DNA of 64,000 bases. It comes from an uncultured Prevotellaceae bacterium. GTDB taxonomy: Bacteria; Bacteroidota; Bacteroidia; Bacteroidales; Muribaculaceae. The notes beneath the pieces are model-generated. The model ran no database searches and was not told the origin of the DNA. It worked only from the letters and a program-made list of their open reading frames with translations. The stretch is from assembly GCA_947302275.1 (NCBI GenBank), contig CAMYUW010000003.1, positions 1 to 64,000 of the forward strand. Direction: 5' to 3'. Position numbers and translations under genes: made by a program. Shown here one piece after another: positions 22,957-43,958 of this stretch. The number at the start of each line of letters is the position of its first letter. The first letter of the stretch is position 1.

Positions 22957-24393
22957 TTAATTGTCAAATAGTTCATCTAGCATGATTTGCTGTTGAACTA
23001 TTCCGGCATGGATACCAGACTTGATGCCAAAAGTGGTAACAAAGGTTGTCAACAATGTCTTGCGGGTTTTGGTCTCTTCCCTGAAAATTGCCATACGCTC
23101 ACGCAGTTTCATCTCATAGTCCTTGGTTATCGTATATGGTTCGGTAGAAAACTTCATCTCGCACAAATGGATGCATCGGTCACTTCGATCAATGATAAGG
23201 TCTATTTGGGCTTTCTTGTTTTCACTATTGGTTTGTTGGCTTCGCCATGATGATACTTCGGTATGAACACCTGATATGCCCAAACTCTTTTTTATTTGTT
23301 CAATATGTTTCAAACAAATGAGTTCAAATGTCAAGCCTTGCCATGAGATAACCGATGGTTCAAACATTTTTCGGTTCCAATAGTTGCCCGTACTTTTTGT
23401 AGTAGCGAATCCATCTATGAACTTATAATAGAACAATGTAAAGAAATCTGTCAAACGGATTATTGCCCCTTTCTTCTTGTTTCCGAGTTGAACATAAGTC
23501 GTGATGAAATCACAGTTTTCAAGATTTTGCAGCCGACGAGTCAAGCCACCACCATTTTCACCCAACTTATCACCCAACTCTTTTCGGGTCATACCCTCAC
23601 GTTTTTGAGCCAACAATTTGACAATTTCAATGTATCGGTCTGCCCCGGTAAACAGGACATTATACAGATCATTAAACTCATTCAACAGCTTTGCTTTAGG
23701 CCTAAAAAACAACAAATCGACATTATAAGACAAGTCGCGATTGAATTCCAGCAGACTGTAATAGAAAGGCACTCCACCCAGATACATATAACTCTGAGCT
23801 ATCGTATATCGGTCCCAAGTGCAGTTGTGGCATCGGAGGTACTGTTCACACTCGCATAGTGTGAAAGCTTTCAGATAAATGCTAGAAGTGATGCGATTGT
23901 GAAGTCCTCCTTGATTATCCACGAGGTTGTTGACCATCCACGATGTTGCCGACCCAGATGCAATCAAGTAAATATCGTCACGTAAGGCCGCCCATGTATT
24001 CCAAAAATCTTCTAAAGCCGCGACAAATTCTGACCGACTCGTATCAATCCAAGGCATCTCATCAAAGAAAAGTATCTTTTTCTCCGAAGTGTTTTGGGAA
24101 TCCAACATGATTTCAAGAGCATCAAAGGCATGATACCAGTTATCTATTTTCAGAGGCATTGATATGTGGCCATAATGCTGCAAGGCCTTGGCGAATAATT
24201 CAAGCTGTCGCTCTTTAGGTGCCTTATGGGATCCTGTAAAGAGAAATGAAAACTTGTCTCTAAAAGTTTGAGTCACCAGAAAAGTCTTACCTATGCGACG
24301 ACGACCATAAATAACCGCAAATTCGGAGCGCGGCGAATTGTAGCAACGCCATAACTCCTTGATTTCCCTTTCACGACCTATCAGTTGTTCCAT
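22957..24393 (-). CDS. AAA ATP-binding protein, DUF234-type with PD-(D/E)XK-like C-terminus
   Basis: Walker A GRRRIGKTFLV, Walker B KKILFFDEMPW, C-terminal QIDLIIDRSDRCIHLCEMKFS. ORF listed to 24417; ATG at 24393 preferred. Confidence 0.85.
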   Translation of the reverse strand: MEQLIGREREIKELWRCYNSPRSEFAVIYGRRRIGKTFLVTQTFRDKFSFLFTGSHKAPKERQLELFAKALQHYGHISMPLKIDNWYHAFDALEIMLDSQNTSEKKILFFDEMPWIDTSRSEFVAALEDFWNTWAALRDDIYLIASGSATSWMVNNLVDNQGGLHNRITSSIYLKAFTLCECEQYLRCHNCTWDRYTIAQSYMYLGGVPFYYSLLEFNRDLSYNVDLLFFRPKAKLLNEFNDLYNVLFTGADRYIEIVKLLAQKREGMTRKELGDKLGENGGGLTRRLQNLENCDFITTYVQLGNKKKGAIIRLTDFFTLFYYKFIDGFATTKSTGNYWNRKMFEPSVISWQGLTFELICLKHIEQIKKSLGISGVHTEVSSWRSQQTNSENKKAQIDLIIDRSDRCIHLCEMKFSTEPYTITKDYEMKLRERMAIFREETKTRKTLLTTFVTTFGIKSGIHAGIVQQQIMLDELFDN

Positions 24394-24462
24394 GATTCCT
24401 ATTTTATTTAGTGCCACAAAATTATTGATTTATAAACTAATAACCAAATTTCTAATGGATTA

Positions 24463-24558
24463 TTTTGGCGAAATCTCACGTTTTTTACCACTTTTAGCCA
24501 AAGATTATTTTGTATCTTTGGCGAAATCTCATGATTTCTACTACATTTAGCCAAAGAT
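24463..24558. repeat. Pair of palindromic repeats upstream of DUF234-type ATPase gene
   Basis: Unit 1 24463-24503; unit 2 24514-24558 (ATCTTTGGCGAAAT...ATTTAGCCAAAGAT). Confidence 0.75.
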
Positions 24559-25530: not shown

Positions 25531-25607
25531 AAGGAAAATAATAAATACAATAAGTACAAATTATCGATTTCCAGTAGTTTGTATTTGTTGTATTTATTGT
25601 TGTTATT
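25531..25607 (+). repeat. AT-rich dispersed hairpin repeat
   Basis: AATAATAAATACAATAAGTACAAA...TTTGTATTTGTTGTATTTATTGTTG; related copies at 14092, 31093, 62116. Confidence 0.6.
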
Positions 25608-25788
25608 TAAGTATGTTGTTTATTTATTGTCATATTATTTACGTCGAGGTGATGTCCTTTCATGGGGGTTCGCATCGATAACTTTTTTTAGTATTAAAAA
25701 ATTATTTTTTTTGTTTGCAAATATCAAACATGCGTTACTATCTTTGCCAACCGTAACTTATTCAATATTAACACCATCCAATTTTATT

Positions 25789-27126
25789 ATGTCAACACAT
25801 TTGTTACAAAAAATCACTGTTTTGATGGTTGTGCTCCTCTTGAGCATACCCGCATGGAGCGCACCGCGCGACAAGCAAGCCATGTTGCAATCGGCAAGAC
25901 AAGCCTTGATGACCATGCCCGCAGGCGGTCATCGTTTTAATGCCTCCTCGACCCTCATTGAGACCCGTGCAACAGATGCCTATTCTCTCTATCAAACCCG
26001 CCAAGGTGACTTTGCCCTGATAGCGGCAGATGACTGTCTGCCAGCCGTCCTGGCCGTGGGTAATGGTCAGCCATCGGTCTCCGCACAGCCCAATCCTGGC
26101 TTTGAATGGTTCTGCGCCAGCATCGAGCAAGTGTCACGCACCCTCACTAGCAGCAATACGACCTTCACGACCACCCTACCCGACCCAGACAAGTATCCCG
26201 TCAAAGTCGATGCTCTGATCTCGTCGCAATGGGGTCAGGACGCGCCCTACAGTTTCTGGTGTCCGACCGGCTATGGCGAAATCTGTGACGACTATACGCC
26301 CGATGTGGTCCATTGCTGTGTGGGATGTGTGGCTACCGCCCTGGCCCAAATCGTCCGCTATTACCGCTTTCCCGACCATGCCTCGGGCACAGCCAATTTC
26401 CTGATCGGTGACAAAGCAGCCAGCACTAGCTTTGATGCGACCTTTGACTGGGACAACATGCTGGACTCCTACCCCGAAGGCCAGTACACCGAGACCCAGG
26501 GACGCGCCGTGGCACTACTTTCCTACGTCTGCGGACTAGTCAGCTATATGAACTACGCCACCAACGAATCAGGGTCAAGCAACTTGGCTGCACTGGCGGG
26601 TGCACAGAACTACTTCGGTTACAGCAAGGACGCTTCTATTGTCGTGCGCAGCGACTACAGCGAGCCAGAATGGATGGATATGGTGTATAACGAGTTGAGC
26701 CATGGTCGCCCCTTGTACTATCAGGGCGTCTATGTGAATTTCGACCCGACAGTGGGCCTGATTGCAGCCGGGCACTCATTCCTCATCGACGGATACAACG
26801 AGGAGGGAATGGTTCACGTCAACTGGGGATGGTATGGCAACTATGACGGCTACTTCGACATCGCTTTGCTCGACGTGCGAGGGCTGCAATTCAACACCTA
26901 CCAGGACATGGCCATCAATTTCGTGCCCGACTCCAGTCTGGCGGTAGTCACTGGTGATGTCAACGGTGACGGCCACGTCAACATCGAGGACGTGACCCTC
27001 CTCATTGATTATCTCTTAAATGATTCAATTCAGATTAATACTGCCAATGCCGATGTTGACCTTGATGGCGCCATCAGCATCACAGATGTAACGGAGCTCA
27101 TCGACAATCTGCTCCAACACAACTGA
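25789..27126 (+). CDS. C10 family (streptopain-like) cysteine peptidase with C-terminal dockerin-like repeat
   Basis: CCVGCVATALAQIVRYY, GHSFLIDGYNEEGMVHVNWGWYG, GDVNGDGHVNIEDVTLLIDYLL...ADVDLDGAISITDVTELIDNLL; ORF 25579-27126, ATG at 25789 preferred. Confidence 0.88.
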   Translation: MSTHLLQKITVLMVVLLLSIPAWSAPRDKQAMLQSARQALMTMPAGGHRFNASSTLIETRATDAYSLYQTRQGDFALIAADDCLPAVLAVGNGQPSVSAQPNPGFEWFCASIEQVSRTLTSSNTTFTTTLPDPDKYPVKVDALISSQWGQDAPYSFWCPTGYGEICDDYTPDVVHCCVGCVATALAQIVRYYRFPDHASGTANFLIGDKAASTSFDATFDWDNMLDSYPEGQYTETQGRAVALLSYVCGLVSYMNYATNESGSSNLAALAGAQNYFGYSKDASIVVRSDYSEPEWMDMVYNELSHGRPLYYQGVYVNFDPTVGLIAAGHSFLIDGYNEEGMVHVNWGWYGNYDGYFDIALLDVRGLQFNTYQDMAINFVPDSSLAVVTGDVNGDGHVNIEDVTLLIDYLLNDSIQINTANADVDLDGAISITDVTELIDNLLQHN

Positions 27127-33512: not shown

Positions 33513-33620
33513 AATTATTTTAGTGCCGTAACCCGATTAATTTTTGAGTTACGGCACTAAAATAATTTATAATTGTGCCATAATAGATAAAAAAAATAGA
33601 GTTATGGCACTATAATAATT
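33513..33620. repeat. Pair of long palindromes upstream of DUF234-type ATPase gene
   Basis: AATTATTTTAGTGCCGTAAC/GTTACGGCACTAAAATAATT (20 bp perfect, 33513-33532 and 33548-33567); second GTGCCATAA/TTATGGCAC (33575-33583 and 33602-33610). Confidence 0.85.
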
Positions 33621-33662: not shown

Positions 33663-35123
33663 ATGAATAACAAGATTATGGCTAAAGGCAATATCATTGG
33701 AAGAGAATACGAGCAACACGTTCTACAAAATATATGTGAAGAAAAAGAGGCTCGACTCGTGGCCATTTATGGCAGACGCCGAGTAGGAAAGACTTACCTC
33801 GTGAAACAGTTTTTCAATGAAGAGTTTGACTTCTTTTTCACAGGAAGCTATGAAGCACCAATGAAGGCTCAGTTAGCATTATTCTGTGAGACTTTACGCG
33901 AATATAGCGGTAGAACTTGGTCAATTCCAAAAGATTGGTTTGAAGCATTTCATCAATTACGGGACTACCTTTCAAGTATTGAAAAAGAGCGTATTATTGT
34001 ATTCCTTGATGAGTTACCCTGGATGGATACACCCAAATCCAAGTTTATCTCAGCATTTGGATACTTTTGGAATAGCTGGGCTTCAAGCCGCAATGGGCTT
34101 ACAATGATCATCTGCGGTTCAGCCACTTCATGGATGCTGGATAGAATCATCGGTGATCCAGGTGGACTATATGGAAGGGTTTCCCGCACAATCTATCTAG
34201 CACCTTTTAATCTTCATGAGGTTGAACAATTCTTGACGCAACGCAAGTGTATTATTTGGAACCGATACCAAATTCTCGAATTGTATATGATAATGGGGGG
34301 TATTCCTTATTATCTGGAAATGTTGGAAAAGTCCTTGCCTTTCAACAAAAATATAGACAACTTGTTTTACCGCAAAGGTGCTCCATTGCGCACTGAGTAT
34401 GATTTTCTGTTCCGCTCGCTATTCAAGTCATCAAACATCTATCACCAAGTGGTAGAAGCGGTTGCCAAGAAGAACAAAGGGTTGACCCTTAAAGAGATTA
34501 AAGAAAGTCTAGGTTATTCTAATAGCGGAAAGCTAACCGAAGTCCTCAATAATTTAATTAAATGTGATTTTCTTCGTAAGTATTATGCCTATGGTAAAAA
34601 AGAGCGAGGTGCCATTTTCCAATTAACAGACCCATTCTCCCTATACCATATCAAGTATTTAGCCCCTCATTCGGGACAAGACGAGCATTTCTGGTCCAAT
34701 ATCAAAGAAAGCGCCAGAAATACTTGGGCAGGATATGCATTTGAACAGGTTTGTTTACACCACATTGACCAGATTAGATCAAAGTTAAGCATCAAGGGCG
34801 TACTTACCAATACTTGTTCGTGGTCATCGCCAAAGCAAGTTGATAATGATGGTACAGAATGGCCAGGAGTTCAAATCGATCTATTGCTCTGCCGAGGTGA
34901 CCATATCATTGACATGTGCGAAATGAAGTATAGCCAAGATTTTTTCACCATTTCAAGTGAATATGAACAGATTCTGAGAGAACGCCAAAGCACTTTTGTC
35001 CATTTTACTAAAACCAAAGATGCCATCCACACGATTCTAGTGACAACATACGGTTTGAAGCAAAACAAATATTCAGGCTGTATATATGCTACGGTCACAA
35101 TGGATGACCTTTTCACACCATAA
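33663..35123 (+). CDS. AAA ATP-binding protein, DUF234-type with PD-(D/E)XK-like C-terminus
   Basis: GRRRVGKTYLVKQFF, RIIVFLDELPW, VQIDLLLCRGDHIIDMCEMKYS; paralogue of 22957-24393. Confidence 0.88.
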   Translation: MNNKIMAKGNIIGREYEQHVLQNICEEKEARLVAIYGRRRVGKTYLVKQFFNEEFDFFFTGSYEAPMKAQLALFCETLREYSGRTWSIPKDWFEAFHQLRDYLSSIEKERIIVFLDELPWMDTPKSKFISAFGYFWNSWASSRNGLTMIICGSATSWMLDRIIGDPGGLYGRVSRTIYLAPFNLHEVEQFLTQRKCIIWNRYQILELYMIMGGIPYYLEMLEKSLPFNKNIDNLFYRKGAPLRTEYDFLFRSLFKSSNIYHQVVEAVAKKNKGLTLKEIKESLGYSNSGKLTEVLNNLIKCDFLRKYYAYGKKERGAIFQLTDPFSLYHIKYLAPHSGQDEHFWSNIKESARNTWAGYAFEQVCLHHIDQIRSKLSIKGVLTNTCSWSSPKQVDNDGTEWPGVQIDLLLCRGDHIIDMCEMKYSQDFFTISSEYEQILRERQSTFVHFTKTKDAIHTILVTTYGLKQNKYSGCIYATVTMDDLFTP

Positions 35124-36483
35124 GGACGATGGGTTTGGTGTCGGGGAGGTGGGTGCTAAGGATGCGTTGAGGCTTGGGGTAGAGGTTGTTGGCGCGGTTG
35201 CCCAGGTTGTTGGCAAAGCCGAGGATGGCACCCTGGTGGGCAACGAGGACGTAGCCCCGGGGAGCGTCAAGGGCGATGCTCTCGCCGCGCAGATAGCGCA
35301 GGGCGGTCAAGTAGTCCACCTCACATGTGGGAAAGGCGTCGGCTGATCTGACTATCGACATGGCCAGCGCATGATGCGGTACAGTTTTGCGACCCATGAC
35401 GGTGGCTAGTTCCACACCGGCGTGCAAGACGCTCAATGCAGCACGTAGTGCCGACAACTCGCGACGGATATCCTGCGGCACTGCAATCGAAAGGTCGCCT
35501 TGTTGATCAACCACATACTCATCGGGAGCAACGAGCCAGTTTTTGCCGATTTCATCGGCTTTTTTTGACATTTTTTCCTTGATTCTAATTTCCTGCCTAG
35601 GGGCATTCCCATCCTTGCGGAATACAGCCATAAACAAACCCTCACCATCCACACGGTGCTGCATGAACCGGTAACAATGGCAATCGCTGCCGATGGCGGG
35701 ATGGATGTTCCAGGACGGTTCGATGGGCACTTCAAGCGATGTAGCGCCCAAGTCATGCACGATGAAATCGGCCATCTGCTCGTTCTCCTGGCGGTTGTAA
35801 GTGCAGGTGCTGTAGATGAGCAGTCCACCAGGGTGCAAGGCCTCCCATACATCGGTGAGGATTTCGCGCTGGCGCTGGGCACACTGCTCGACCAGGGCTG
35901 GTGACCACTGGGCTACGGCCTCATCGTCCTTGCGCATCATTCCCTCACCACTGCAAGGTACATCGGCGGCAATGACGTCAAAGAAATGAGTCAACTTGCC
36001 AATTTGAGCGGGCGCGTTACTCGTCACCACACAGCGGGGGTCACCCCAACGGACAACATTGTCGGCAAGCACACGGGCACGTGGCGGCACAATCTCGTTG
36101 GCAACCACCAGTGAGCGCTGTGGCAAGGCCTGAATCGCGGCCGTTGTCTTGCCACCGGGTGCAGCACACAAGTCAAGATAACGCACCGGCTCTTGAATGA
36201 AATGCCTGATGACATGGCCTATGAACATCGACGAAGCATCCTGTACATAGTAACGCCCCGCATGCCAATCGGGGTCAAACGTGAAGACAGGACGGTCAGT
36301 GAGATAAAAGCCCTCGCTGCACCATGGCACACGGCGGCACCCATCAGGCACCCCCACCCCACGGGCCTCGTTGACGCGCACAGCGACACTGGGCTCACTG
36401 GCCGTAATCGCATCGGCCAGCGCTTCCCACTCTTCAGGCAGCAGCCCACGTAATTGCTCTATAAACTCCTCAGGCAGTTTCAT
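35113..36483 (-). CDS. RsmF/NOL1-NOP2-Sun family rRNA cytosine-C5 methyltransferase
   Basis: YLDLCAAPGGKTTAAIQAL, DVPCSGEGMMRKD, LIYSTCTYNRQENEQ; ORF extends to 36588, ATG at 36483 preferred. Confidence 0.9.
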   Translation of the reverse strand: MKLPEEFIEQLRGLLPEEWEALADAITASEPSVAVRVNEARGVGVPDGCRRVPWCSEGFYLTDRPVFTFDPDWHAGRYYVQDASSMFIGHVIRHFIQEPVRYLDLCAAPGGKTTAAIQALPQRSLVVANEIVPPRARVLADNVVRWGDPRCVVTSNAPAQIGKLTHFFDVIAADVPCSGEGMMRKDDEAVAQWSPALVEQCAQRQREILTDVWEALHPGGLLIYSTCTYNRQENEQMADFIVHDLGATSLEVPIEPSWNIHPAIGSDCHCYRFMQHRVDGEGLFMAVFRKDGNAPRQEIRIKEKMSKKADEIGKNWLVAPDEYVVDQQGDLSIAVPQDIRRELSALRAALSVLHAGVELATVMGRKTVPHHALAMSIVRSADAFPTCEVDYLTALRYLRGESIALDAPRGYVLVAHQGAILGFANNLGNRANNLYPKPQRILSTHLPDTKPIVLMV

Positions 36484-36548
36484 CACTGCAAAGGTAGTAA
36501 AAAACGCGCAATCTCCATGACTACCATAATAAGGCACGAAAAACCGAT

Positions 36549-36642
36549 TTTTGTCCAAATCTATGGTTTTTGACCCACATTTGGACAAAATTCGCCTTAT
36601 TTTCGTCCAAATCTATACTTTTAACCCCACATTTGGACAAAA
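36549..36642. repeat. Pair of palindromic repeats between rsmF-like gene and gyrB, no adjacent ATPase gene
   Basis: TTTTGTCCAAAT/ATTTGGACAAAA (36549-36590, 12 bp perfect) and TTTCGTCCAAAT/ATTTGGACAAAA (36601-36642). Confidence 0.85.
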
Positions 36643-36765
36643 ATCCTTGTTTTTATCCCATTTCAAACAGTATGATTTATTCTCGTGGAGAGGGGTGGGA
36701 AGGGGCGGTTGAAATTATAGTTTTTTAAGGTTTTGAACTTTGGGTAAATGGGCATTTTTTTGTAA

Positions 36766-38808
<2,043 letters not shown>

Positions 38809-40552: not shown

Positions 40553-41575
40553 ATGCCTGACCAAGAGAGAAATATCATCATCTACCGCACTGCCGATGGC
40601 CGTGCTTCAGTAGCGCTATATGCCCATGACGGCAAGATTTGGGTCAACCAACAGCAGATGGCAGAACTTTTTGCCACCTCCAAGCAATCCATCAGTTATC
40701 ACATAGTTAACATCCTGAAAGAAAATGAATTAACAAAAGATTCAGTTGTCAAAGAATTTTTGACAACTGCCGCCGATGGCAAGAGTTACAATGTCATTTT
40801 CTATTCGTTGGAGATGATTATTGCAGTGGGTTATCGTGTACGTGGCGTACGTGGTACTCAATTCCGCCAATGGGCAACGGAACATTTGACCGAGTATTTG
40901 GTTAAGGGATTCACAATGGACGATGAGCGTTTAAAGAATCCCGATGGTCGTCCCGACTATTTTGATGAACTGTTAGCGAGAATTCGGGACATTCGGGCCT
41001 CGGAAAAGCGTTTTTATCAAAAAATTCGCGACCTGTTCTCACTCAGTAGCGACTACGATAAAACAGACAAGGCAACACAGATGTTCTTTGCCGAGACACA
41101 GAACAAATTACTCTATGCTGTTACTCATCAAACCGCCGCCGAATTGATTTGCGCCCGTGCTGATGCCGAGAAGCCCAATATGGGTCTGACCACATGGAAA
41201 GGTTCCATCGTACGCAAGGGCGATATCACCATTGCAAAAAACTATCTGCAAGATGCTGAAATCGACAGGCTGAACCGCCTCGTTGACATCTTCTTGACAT
41301 CAGCCGAAATGCGCGTACAAGATAGACGAGACCTCACCCTTGACTACTGGCGTGACAACGTTGACAACCTTCTCGCCTTCCAGGGAATGGACGTTCTCCA
41401 AGACAAAGGCTCCGTCTCCAATGCCCAGATGGAGCATCACGTCCGTGAAGTCTACGCCGATTTCGACACCAAACGCAAGCAACTCGAAGCCCAGCAAGCC
41501 GACGCCGACGACCTAAAACTCCTCGAAGACATCGAGAAACGAATCCTCAACCAATCAAGTAACGAGCAAGAATAG
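40553..41575 (+). CDS. RhuM family (virulence RhuM-like) protein
   Basis: [48 protein letters not shown]...[28 protein letters not shown]. Confidence 0.85.
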
Positions 41576-41580
41576 ATGGT

Positions 41581-41738
41581 GACGCCATGGAACGCATGAA
41601 CATGAGCGCCCGAGCCTACGACCGCATCCTCAAAGTCGCCCGCACCATCGCCGACCTCGAGGCCTGCGCCGACGTCCTCGACCACCACATCATGGAAGCC
41701 ATCGCCTACCGCAACTCGACCGCCCCACCTACCTGGGC
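41581..41738 (+). repeat. comM 3'-end repeat, copy 2 (non-coding remnant)
   Basis: gacgccatggaacgcatgaacatgagcgcccgagcctacgaccgcatcctc...; single-base deletion in 'gcaactcgac' shifts the frame. Confidence 0.92.
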
Positions 41739-41828
41739 AACAATTTGTAAATCGTGGTTCAGTTATTTGTTTTCAGTAAAAAAGCTCAAAAAGCATAGTT
41801 TTAACTAATAAAATTGTGTGGAATGTAA

Positions 41829-42488
41829 TTAATTCTTCTCTGTCACTATTCCTAAATTCTCCATTTTTTTCCAGAATAATTGCATAGTTCGTTCATATAT
41901 TTCTGACAAGCAATTTCTGTAAGATGTCGTTTTTCTTATTCTATCAGTATCTCCCTTTATTTGTTGCGCTAGCGACGTGAAATTGATAACTGATTGCTTT
42001 GATATTAATGAGAGAATGAGATTCATCTGGTTCAAATAATTCATTTGATTTGGACGTTCAGAAAGAATCGCGTAATATAGAGCAGCATGATAGAATGTAA
42101 ATGCTTCTATGTGTTGTCCTTTTGTCATATGGGATTCTGCGATTTCTCCACATAATCCTGATTGCAGGTTATAGGCTTCTTTAGTATGAAGTCTATCATT
42201 TTCTGCAAGTATGCGTTCGTTGTCAATAAGATCATTTTGCCGTTTCTCTAATTCAGCCAACTTGTCACGCATCTCTATTGCATTGATGATTTGCCATCCA
42301 ACGATTACTGTAAAGATTATAGCTAAAAGGGCTACAATGACACCAATAAAGGTATCCAATGAAACCACAGAAAGTTCGATGCTTCCAAATAACCAAAGCC
42401 CCCAAACGGACAAGACTCCAACAAATGAGATAAGTGATAGAATAAAAGTTATCTTAGTTTTCATAGCCGATGATAATTCTTGTGTCAA
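41829..42488 (-). CDS. Two-TM membrane protein with cytoplasmic helical domain, unknown function
   Basis: 219 aa; starts 9 bp after the ATPase stop on the same strand. Confidence 0.65.
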   Translation of the reverse strand: MTQELSSAMKTKITFILSLISFVGVLSVWGLWLFGSIELSVVSLDTFIGVIVALLAIIFTVIVGWQIINAIEMRDKLAELEKRQNDLIDNERILAENDRLHTKEAYNLQSGLCGEIAESHMTKGQHIEAFTFYHAALYYAILSERPNQMNYLNQMNLILSLISKQSVINFTSLAQQIKGDTDRIRKTTSYRNCLSEIYERTMQLFWKKMENLGIVTEKN

Positions 42489-42497
42489 AATCCTTTT

Positions 42498-43958
42498 CTA
42501 CAAGCCGAAAGACTCTTTAGTTGCCTTTAGGGTATTCTCTCCAACGGTATAGGCATAACAAGCGACAGGCATAAACTGCAAGCAACCATATGGCATCGTC
42601 TTTTTACCCTCTTCTGAAATAGAGGTCACAATTGCATAGGAAAGACCATTCGTTCTCATAAAGGTTTCCAAAGATTTCAGTTCTAAAGATGGGTTAGCAT
42701 AAGGTCTATTTGACCATTTTACTTCCACTGCCCAATCTGGTTTTTGCTTAGCCTCATTTATGCCGACAATGTCCACCTCTCCTTTCTTCTTGTTTCCTTC
42801 GTTCCAGTTAGCGTAGGCAATGTTTGCATTTCTGGGTATCCATTGGGCATACACCGCAGTTTCCACCATATTACCAATAACCTCGTCATTTTCGTCAATG
42901 GGTTGAAAAAGAGCACATCTTAGTGATGGATTTGTCAGGTATAGTTTAAATAGCATTTCTCGTCTATACTCTTTTGCTGTGTCATCGGCCCTGCGTATCT
43001 TTTTTATCAAAAAGGCAGCTTCCAAATATTGAATATACTTACGAAGTGTATCTTTTTTGACACCAGAGTCTTTAGATAAACCTTCATATGAGAATTGAGC
43101 ACCTGAATGATATGCAATCATAGTAAAAAGGGAGTTAAGTTCTTGGACGTCCGTTATGCCGTATAAACTTGGTAAGTCCCTGAGCAAGACTTTGTCAATA
43201 ATGTCATGTCTGATAAATTGACCTGGATTCTCTTGTATTTGTTTAGAAAATACCACCTCTGGATATCCGCCATAGTTGATGTAGTCAATAAACAACTTAT
43301 TCAATTTCGCAATGTTAATTGTAGTGTTTCCAACTATAATATGATGGTTCCATTCCATTTCAAAGGGCATCATCAGCTGAGCATAATCTCTTAAGTGAAC
43401 AAATTCATAAAAAGTCAATGGCGGTAGATTAAAATCAGTAAATCGTCCAGCACCACTTTCATTACTGCGCTTTTTCAATTCTGCAGCAGCTGATCCCGAA
43501 GCAACAAACTTTACATTATAATAGGTATCAACTAATGATTTCAAATTCACTTCCCAATCCTTCAAGTATTGAATCTCATCAAAAAAGACATAGAATTTCT
43601 CTTTGCTATTAGGTTTGCCTAATGCCTGTTTTGCTAAATTGAATAGTTGTTCTAACAATATTTTGTTGTAGATTGGAGTTTCAACTGAAATATAGATAAT
43701 ATTCTGAGTAGATACCCCATCGGCAATTAAACGCTGAATAGTATGGTATATCATAACAGTTTTTCCAACACGACGAGGTCCCATAAGTATGATGGCACGC
43801 CTTATCTCAGAATCAACTACCAAAGGATAGAAAATATCAAGATATAAACGAGGATGCATCTCTGCATAATAGGGTGAGATTTCATTCTCTGTCCACCAGG
43901 GATTATCTACTTTGAGTCTCCCGATAACCTGTTTTTCTATTAGTTCGTTGTATAGCAT
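42498..43958 (-). CDS. AAA ATP-binding protein, DUF4143 type
   Basis: IILMGPRRVGKTVMIYHTI, FYVFFDEIQYLKDWEVNLKSLVDTY, C-terminal GEVDIVGINEAKQKPDWAVEVKWS. Confidence 0.88.
   Translation of the reverse strand: MLYNELIEKQVIGRLKVDNPWWTENEISPYYAEMHPRLYLDIFYPLVVDSEIRRAIILMGPRRVGKTVMIYHTIQRLIADGVSTQNIIYISVETPIYNKILLEQLFNLAKQALGKPNSKEKFYVFFDEIQYLKDWEVNLKSLVDTYYNVKFVASGSAAAELKKRSNESGAGRFTDFNLPPLTFYEFVHLRDYAQLMMPFEMEWNHHIIVGNTTINIAKLNKLFIDYINYGGYPEVVFSKQIQENPGQFIRHDIIDKVLLRDLPSLYGITDVQELNSLFTMIAYHSGAQFSYEGLSKDSGVKKDTLRKYIQYLEAAFLIKKIRRADDTAKEYRREMLFKLYLTNPSLRCALFQPIDENDEVIGNMVETAVYAQWIPRNANIAYANWNEGNKKKGEVDIVGINEAKQKPDWAVEVKWSNRPYANPSLELKSLETFMRTNGLSYAIVTSISEEGKKTMPYGCLQFMPVACYAYTVGENTLKATKESFGL

Follow-up and report, generated by a model that had tools for sequence, protein, structure and literature searches.

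A palindrome pair between rsmF and gyrB as a likely solo array of a lost PDC-S27 ATPase unit

The rsmF–gyrB interval and its surroundings

The window, by which we mean the whole 64,000-nucleotide stretch of DNA that was analysed from an uncultured Prevotellaceae bacterium, contains an rsmF-like 16S rRNA methyltransferase gene on the reverse strand (35113–36483, with a -7-like box TACCTTTG at 36489–36496) and gyrB on the forward strand (36829–38808, with a -7-like box TAATTTTG at 36763–36770). The interval between them holds two interrupted palindromes, at 36545–36594 and 36599–36644, and the pair contains no ORF. Palindrome 1 carries the half-sites GTCCAAAT (36553–36560) and ATTTGGAC (36579–36586) around an 18-nt loop, and its inverted repeat spans 16 nt on each side (36545–36560/36579–36594, 94%). 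Palindrome 2, with half-sites at 36605–36612 and 36631–36638, has an inverted repeat of 14 nt (36599–36612/36631–36644, 93%). The two are 85% identical across 47 nt, their centres (36569.5 and 36621.5) are separated by 52 bp, and half-sites start at 36553, 36579, 36605, and 36631, that is, every 26 bp (~2.5 helical turns) in alternating orientation. The pair lies 66 bp from the rsmF ATG (36483), and its gyrB-side end is 191 bp from the gyrB ATG. The original prediction, made from sequence alone, had given the sequence, the coordinates, the 52-bp centre spacing, and the 66 bp to rsmF, and all of these held.

It had also related the pair to another at 24.4 kb, which held for the architecture, since a palindrome pair with 53-bp spacing (TTTGGCGAAAT class, 24464–24558) sits just upstream of an ATPase gene (22957–24417, reverse strand, likely ATG near 24393). 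The proposal that the GTCC and GGC stems differ by compensatory change had to be revised, as the difference is one between two sequence classes; a double compensatory change does occur among close relatives, from GTCC/GGAC to GCCC/GGGC in G057. The statement that no ATPase accompanies the pair needed correction: a second gene (ATPase_2, winged helix, DUF234-like domain) lies close by at 33663–35123 on the forward strand, convergent with rsmF, with its own pair of a different class (GTGCC, 53-bp spacing) at 33513–33620, and had been missed. Both window ATPases match the PADLOC family PDC-S27 at about E 1e-188, and neither has a detectable downstream array copy. A third PDC-S27 gene on another contig brings the host genome to three, alongside two PDC-S01 genes. 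None of the arrays of the three PDC-S27 genes is of the GTCCAAAT class; with the genome 89% complete, a GTCC-class ATPase at another place may have escaped detection.

Other features of the neighbourhood are recorded here for completeness. G033 carries an 87% identical relative of the 33663–35123 ATPase at the same place. A RhuM-family gene (PDC-S05) and an AAA_14/DUF4143 gene (PDC-S01) occupy 40553–43958, near the two PDC-S27 genes, which places four single-gene defence candidates (PDC-S27 twice, PDC-S05, and PDC-S01) inside about 21 kb. At 25579–27126 lies a C10 peptidase that also carries type I dockerin and Spi inhibitor domains.

The pair is rare within its host. The sequence frame common to the palindromes, allowing up to 3 mismatches, was found at only 2 places in the whole genome, both belonging to this pair, and at none in the reversed control; the copy number of this palindrome class in the host is two palindromes. 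A blind scan for tandem palindromes at lags of 30–120, covering 880 kb (~29% of the host genome), returned three at lag 51–54 and one at lag 45, of which a stricter scan of the same 880 kb retained one at each. The original prediction had called for a search for further 52–53 bp pairs, and in these 880 kb there were only this pair and those 5′ of the two ATPase_2/DUF234 genes, all three within the window. Because the frame is unique to its two places, the reversed control is empty, and only three lag 51–54 pairs occur in 880 kb, we conclude that the pair is not a product of chance.

PDC-S27 ATPases and their cognate arrays

PDC-S27 is an abundant, unvalidated phage-defence candidate family (PMC12988326, PMC13356809). 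The relevant passages of these two papers do not mention arrays, co-mobility, or solo copies, and a search of the open-access PMC literature for palindromes with DUF234 or PDC-S27 found the arrays undescribed. Among 85 family members from the genus, 46 have an upstream tandem repeat of 50–54 bp, peaking at 52–53, and two more have one at lag 104; no lag 50–54 repeat was found in 425 dinucleotide shuffles or in 85 coding segments. In named GTDB genomes, a set that partly overlaps with the 85 members, a lag 51–54 array was present at 54 of 79 usable PDC-S27 loci, and other families of the order show the same upstream architecture. The upstream sequence is repeated 3′ of the stop codon in 37/85 members versus 6/300 swapped controls. 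These repeats are mostly the arrays themselves, as direct repeats of about 50–110 bp with up to 100% identity, and some are other host DNA. At five loci (L064, L100, L118, L120, and L126), long direct repeats of host DNA (114–359 bp, 77–92%) flank the units.

Palindrome sequence differs by clade and tracks ATPase identity (Mantel r 0.49, 0/2000 permutations), and most relatives at least 66% identical bear GTCC- or GCCC-type palindromes. For ATPases with an array matching the rsmF–gyrB pair, the PADLOC hit is PDLC04984 (about E 1e-188). In Pfam, ATPase_2 scores above cut-off, DUF234 does so for the G002 protein, and winged-helix matches are weak; an NCBIfam scan gave no match. An AlphaFold2 model of the protein (pLDDT 88.7, pTM 0.87) has its best PDB matches in a Pyrococcus Walker-type ATPase, STAND/NLR proteins, and Orc1/Cdc6. 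Walker A (G30–T37) and the Walker B region (F108–E111) are conserved, as are D396, E410, and K412, which fit a PD-(D/E)XK-like pattern; a nuclease activity is inferred from this pattern, with no activity data.

The PDC-S01 (AAA_14/DUF4143) genes of the genus (L335–L352) also have palindromic repeats upstream (e.g., TTTTGTGG..CCACAAAA), with a best lag of 39 or 40 in 17 of the first 18 loci, though only five reach the 26/34 threshold. Cognate arrays with a family-specific period could perhaps be a wider feature of PDC-S27/PDC-S01-type ATPases.

Filled, solo, and empty alleles among relatives

We compared 32 close-clade genomes with rsmF near gyrB, using, as in all comparisons here, one representative genome per species, mostly MAGs. 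Five sister species have a PDC-S27 gene of the same GTCC class between rsmF and gyrB, 15 genomes including this one have an array only, and in 12, the empty sites, no palindrome was detected. The array-only group comprises five solo pairs (this genome, G033, G036, G037, and G018) and ten single palindromes. Four of the filled genomes (G002, G129, G026, and G035) have the GTCC array on either side of the ATPase. Up to the array, filled G002 is 85% identical to solo G122/G108 in its left flank, and filled G026 is 84% identical to solo G123 in its right flank (99th percentile of shuffled controls, 0.60–0.61). Exact insertion boundaries could not be mapped at gyrB because flanks are saturated between species.

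The five gyrB-site ATPases form one clade (SH-aLRT 94), and therefore one insertion suffices; their branching, G133,(G129,(G026,(G002,G035))), agrees with the host tree. On a tree of rsmF and metG, the filled, solo, and empty states are interleaved, with 13 changes and many weak branches. Single entry followed by repeated loss is the simplest reading of these states. A short-read assembly could in principle merge two flanking arrays into one; against such a collapse, the solo allele of this genome is internal to a contig of 102 kb, and solo alleles recur in several independent genomes.

To the right of the pair, at 36639–36672 on the forward strand, a T-rich stretch has TTGTTTTTATCC in common with what follows the left array in G026/G035, and might be a vestige of the promoter-side flank of the lost ATPase. 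Against filled left arrays it reaches 17/26 matches (shuffle p 0.0012, the best of 15 solo loci and uncorrected for them), which we regard as a weak, merely suggestive hint. A separate observation concerns 36420–36645, running from the start of rsmF to the end of the array: here this genome and G036 resemble each other far more closely than within rsmF or past the array, and the sharp divergence at the right edge of the array is a possible recombination endpoint.

GTCC-class units are not confined to this site. The 42 units examined fall into 31 right-neighbour clusters, and within the genus they adjoin gyrB, polA, a spoU-like gene, a yebC-like gene, and ispE (neighbour names were taken from the start of translated sequences); palindromes of the class also occur solo beside unrelated genes. 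One G025 unit has no counterpart at that site in G121, the nearest relative (flanks 95% identical), nor in G129 and G122; in these three the intergenic region is 118–147 bp long and holds no such array. Because these three empty sites lack an array, the array arrived with the unit. Examined for the fixed-length target-site duplication of a transposon or MITE, the locus resembles replacement of an intergenic region more than clean insertion. Elsewhere, a single GTCC palindrome lies 5′ of a higBA-like pair and a spoU-like gene (L020, G006:C25), and G059 has a GTCC ATPase unit at the same spoU-like gene. Two Fibrobacter MAGs (L309 and L311) carry 52–53% identical PDC-S27 relatives, which may represent inter-phylum exchange in the rumen or a binning error.

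Among 14 solo genomes, the palindromes have a pairwise identity of 80%; the corresponding values are 39% and 33% for the flanks, 63% for third codon positions, and 81% for the gyrB promoter. Solo palindromes are thus about as conserved as the gyrB promoter (0.80 vs 0.81), with flanks near random level. The arms belonged to the search pattern; the 18-nt loop did not, and it is 73% identical versus 27–38% in neighbouring flank windows. The distance from palindrome to gyrB ATG is 190–192 bp in most solo genomes and 202–204 in three. Palindrome-free genomes also show recurring interval lengths, which makes constant spacing a weak argument, and helical phasing to gyrB (191 or 202–204 bp) was rejected because rare indels in the interval account for it equally well. 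The solo arrays are more conserved than expected of a neutral scar, so either the host or another protein makes use of the array, or most lineages lost the ATPase late.

Origin of the pair, rival explanations, and known systems

We consider it likely that the rsmF–gyrB pair is a solo cognate array left after loss of a PDC-S27 ATPase, and likewise likely that the PDC-S27 unit is a small mobile gene unit travelling with its own matching palindromes, with no experimental data on how it moves. The unit consists of one ORF (AAA+ ATPase, winged helix, and PD-(D/E)XK-like DUF234 domain) with a palindrome array just 5′ of its promoter, and often a second copy of the array directly after the stop codon. 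A GTCC-class unit would have entered the rsmF–gyrB interval in the ancestor of the clade, been inherited, and been lost repeatedly, as the comparison supports, and this genome retains the array without the ATPase. Loss may have occurred when the two arrays, as direct repeats, recombined and a single one stayed behind, the route by which solo LTRs form; this is inferred, and excision has not been shown. The ATPase is further predicted to bind the alternating 26-bp half-sites through its winged helix as an oligomer (no binding data) and to control its own promoter (no expression data), and the pairing of protein and array may drive mobility or defence, for which there are no binding, cutting, or excision data. 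The original prediction had offered a scar of a mobile ATPase unit as one reading, and this is well supported by the cognate ATPase at the same site in five sister species, the both-side arrays in four of the five, and GTCC-class units at many other loci. Against it stands that only 37/85 members have a detectable downstream copy.

One possible rival is that the palindromes bind a host transcription factor for the divergent rsmF/gyrB promoters and are kept by selection. The conservation of palindrome (80% vs 39%/33%) and loop (73% vs 27–38%) over flanks speaks for it, as does the distance to the gyrB ATG (190–192 bp in most, 202–204 in three). However, 12/32 close relatives lack such a palindrome, the same class accompanies ATPases at about 30 other loci and stands solo beside unrelated genes, a recent terminal-branch loss of the ATPase would likewise leave a conserved array, and the spacing argument is weak, given that interval lengths recur in palindrome-free genomes. 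A host regulatory role as a later co-option is compatible with the solo-array explanation, and because solo arrays stay conserved (80% vs 33–39% in flanks) later host use is not excluded; a present role at gyrB or rsmF is not shown. It is unlikely that the array was at gyrB first, as a target in which PDC-S27 units insert and which they duplicate. Such an ancestral array would yield the same filled/solo pattern at this site, with arrays on both sides of the unit, and this counts against our explanation; yet the three empty sites at the G025 locus hold no array, and the single clade of gyrB ATPases needs only one insertion.

We also doubt that the pair serves in trans as the target of a different PDC-S27 or related ATPase encoded by this genome, in spite of the three PDC-S27 and two PDC-S01 genes present. 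The arrays of the three are not of the GTCCAAAT class, palindromes follow their own ATPase clade, and G036 keeps the pair with no PDC-S27 gene but one distant match (E 1e-39; genome 90% complete). Retention of the pair in a species without ATPases had been named as grounds for refuting the original prediction, and G036 nearly provides it. Because the pair is kept there without a close PDC-S27, its persistence in G036 does not require a family member acting in trans; this speaks against obligatory trans action but leaves the scar reading untouched. The earlier suggestion of a trans target placed at a housekeeping promoter has been neither demonstrated nor ruled out. Least plausible, and very unlikely, is a pair of structured RNAs or terminators instead of DNA sites: each palindrome has hairpin potential, but there was no Rfam match above the gathering score, the loops are 18 nt long, and in ATPase units the array precedes the promoter-like box and probably is not transcribed with the ATPase.

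Returning to the solo-array explanation, a bolder version of it may be entertained as one joint possibility: PDC-S27 units could be single-gene mobile elements without transposase or recombinase, in which an AAA+ protein of Orc/STAND-like type, equipped with a nuclease domain, recognises the alternating half-sites of its own array, moves the array–ORF unit, and leaves behind solo arrays, which hosts may then retain at promoters. Counts of PDC-S27 as a defence candidate run into the thousands across bacterial and archaeal genomes, and its mechanism is not known. That most genes studied here have a cognate array next to them, diverging fast in sequence, gives the family a testable DNA partner and suggests a reason for its presence at so many locations, and the solo, filled, and empty alleles are ready material for tests of mobility and gyrB regulation.

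The array of the pair meets the criterion of a PDC-S27 unit in its 50–54-bp period and in a class matching a PDC-S27 clade. The adjacent cognate ORF is present at the site in five sister species and absent in this genome, so the pair is a solo array and not a unit. Units resemble REP/RAYT systems (REPtron, TnpA-REP) in having a gene between cognate palindromes, copies of which are also found on their own, but they have no Y1/HUH transposase, their only ORF being ATPase_2 plus DUF234 (AAA+/nuclease-like), and their copies are direct, 52–53 bp apart, with one pair in this genome and not hundreds. The protein model resembles the AAA+ plus winged helix of archaeal Orc1/Cdc6 (2qby, 1w5t), initiators that bind repeats (origin recognition boxes) near their own gene; unlike them, PDC-S27 has an extra PD-(D/E)XK-like domain, and there is no evidence of a replication function. 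With solo LTRs, the units have in common direct terminal repeats, one of which is left on loss of the internal ORF, although they contain no reverse transcriptase or integrase and the repeat is ~100 bp of palindromes. The solo-LTR-like criterion is met at the rsmF–gyrB site, where the repeat lies on both sides of the ORF in filled alleles and in one copy in solo alleles.
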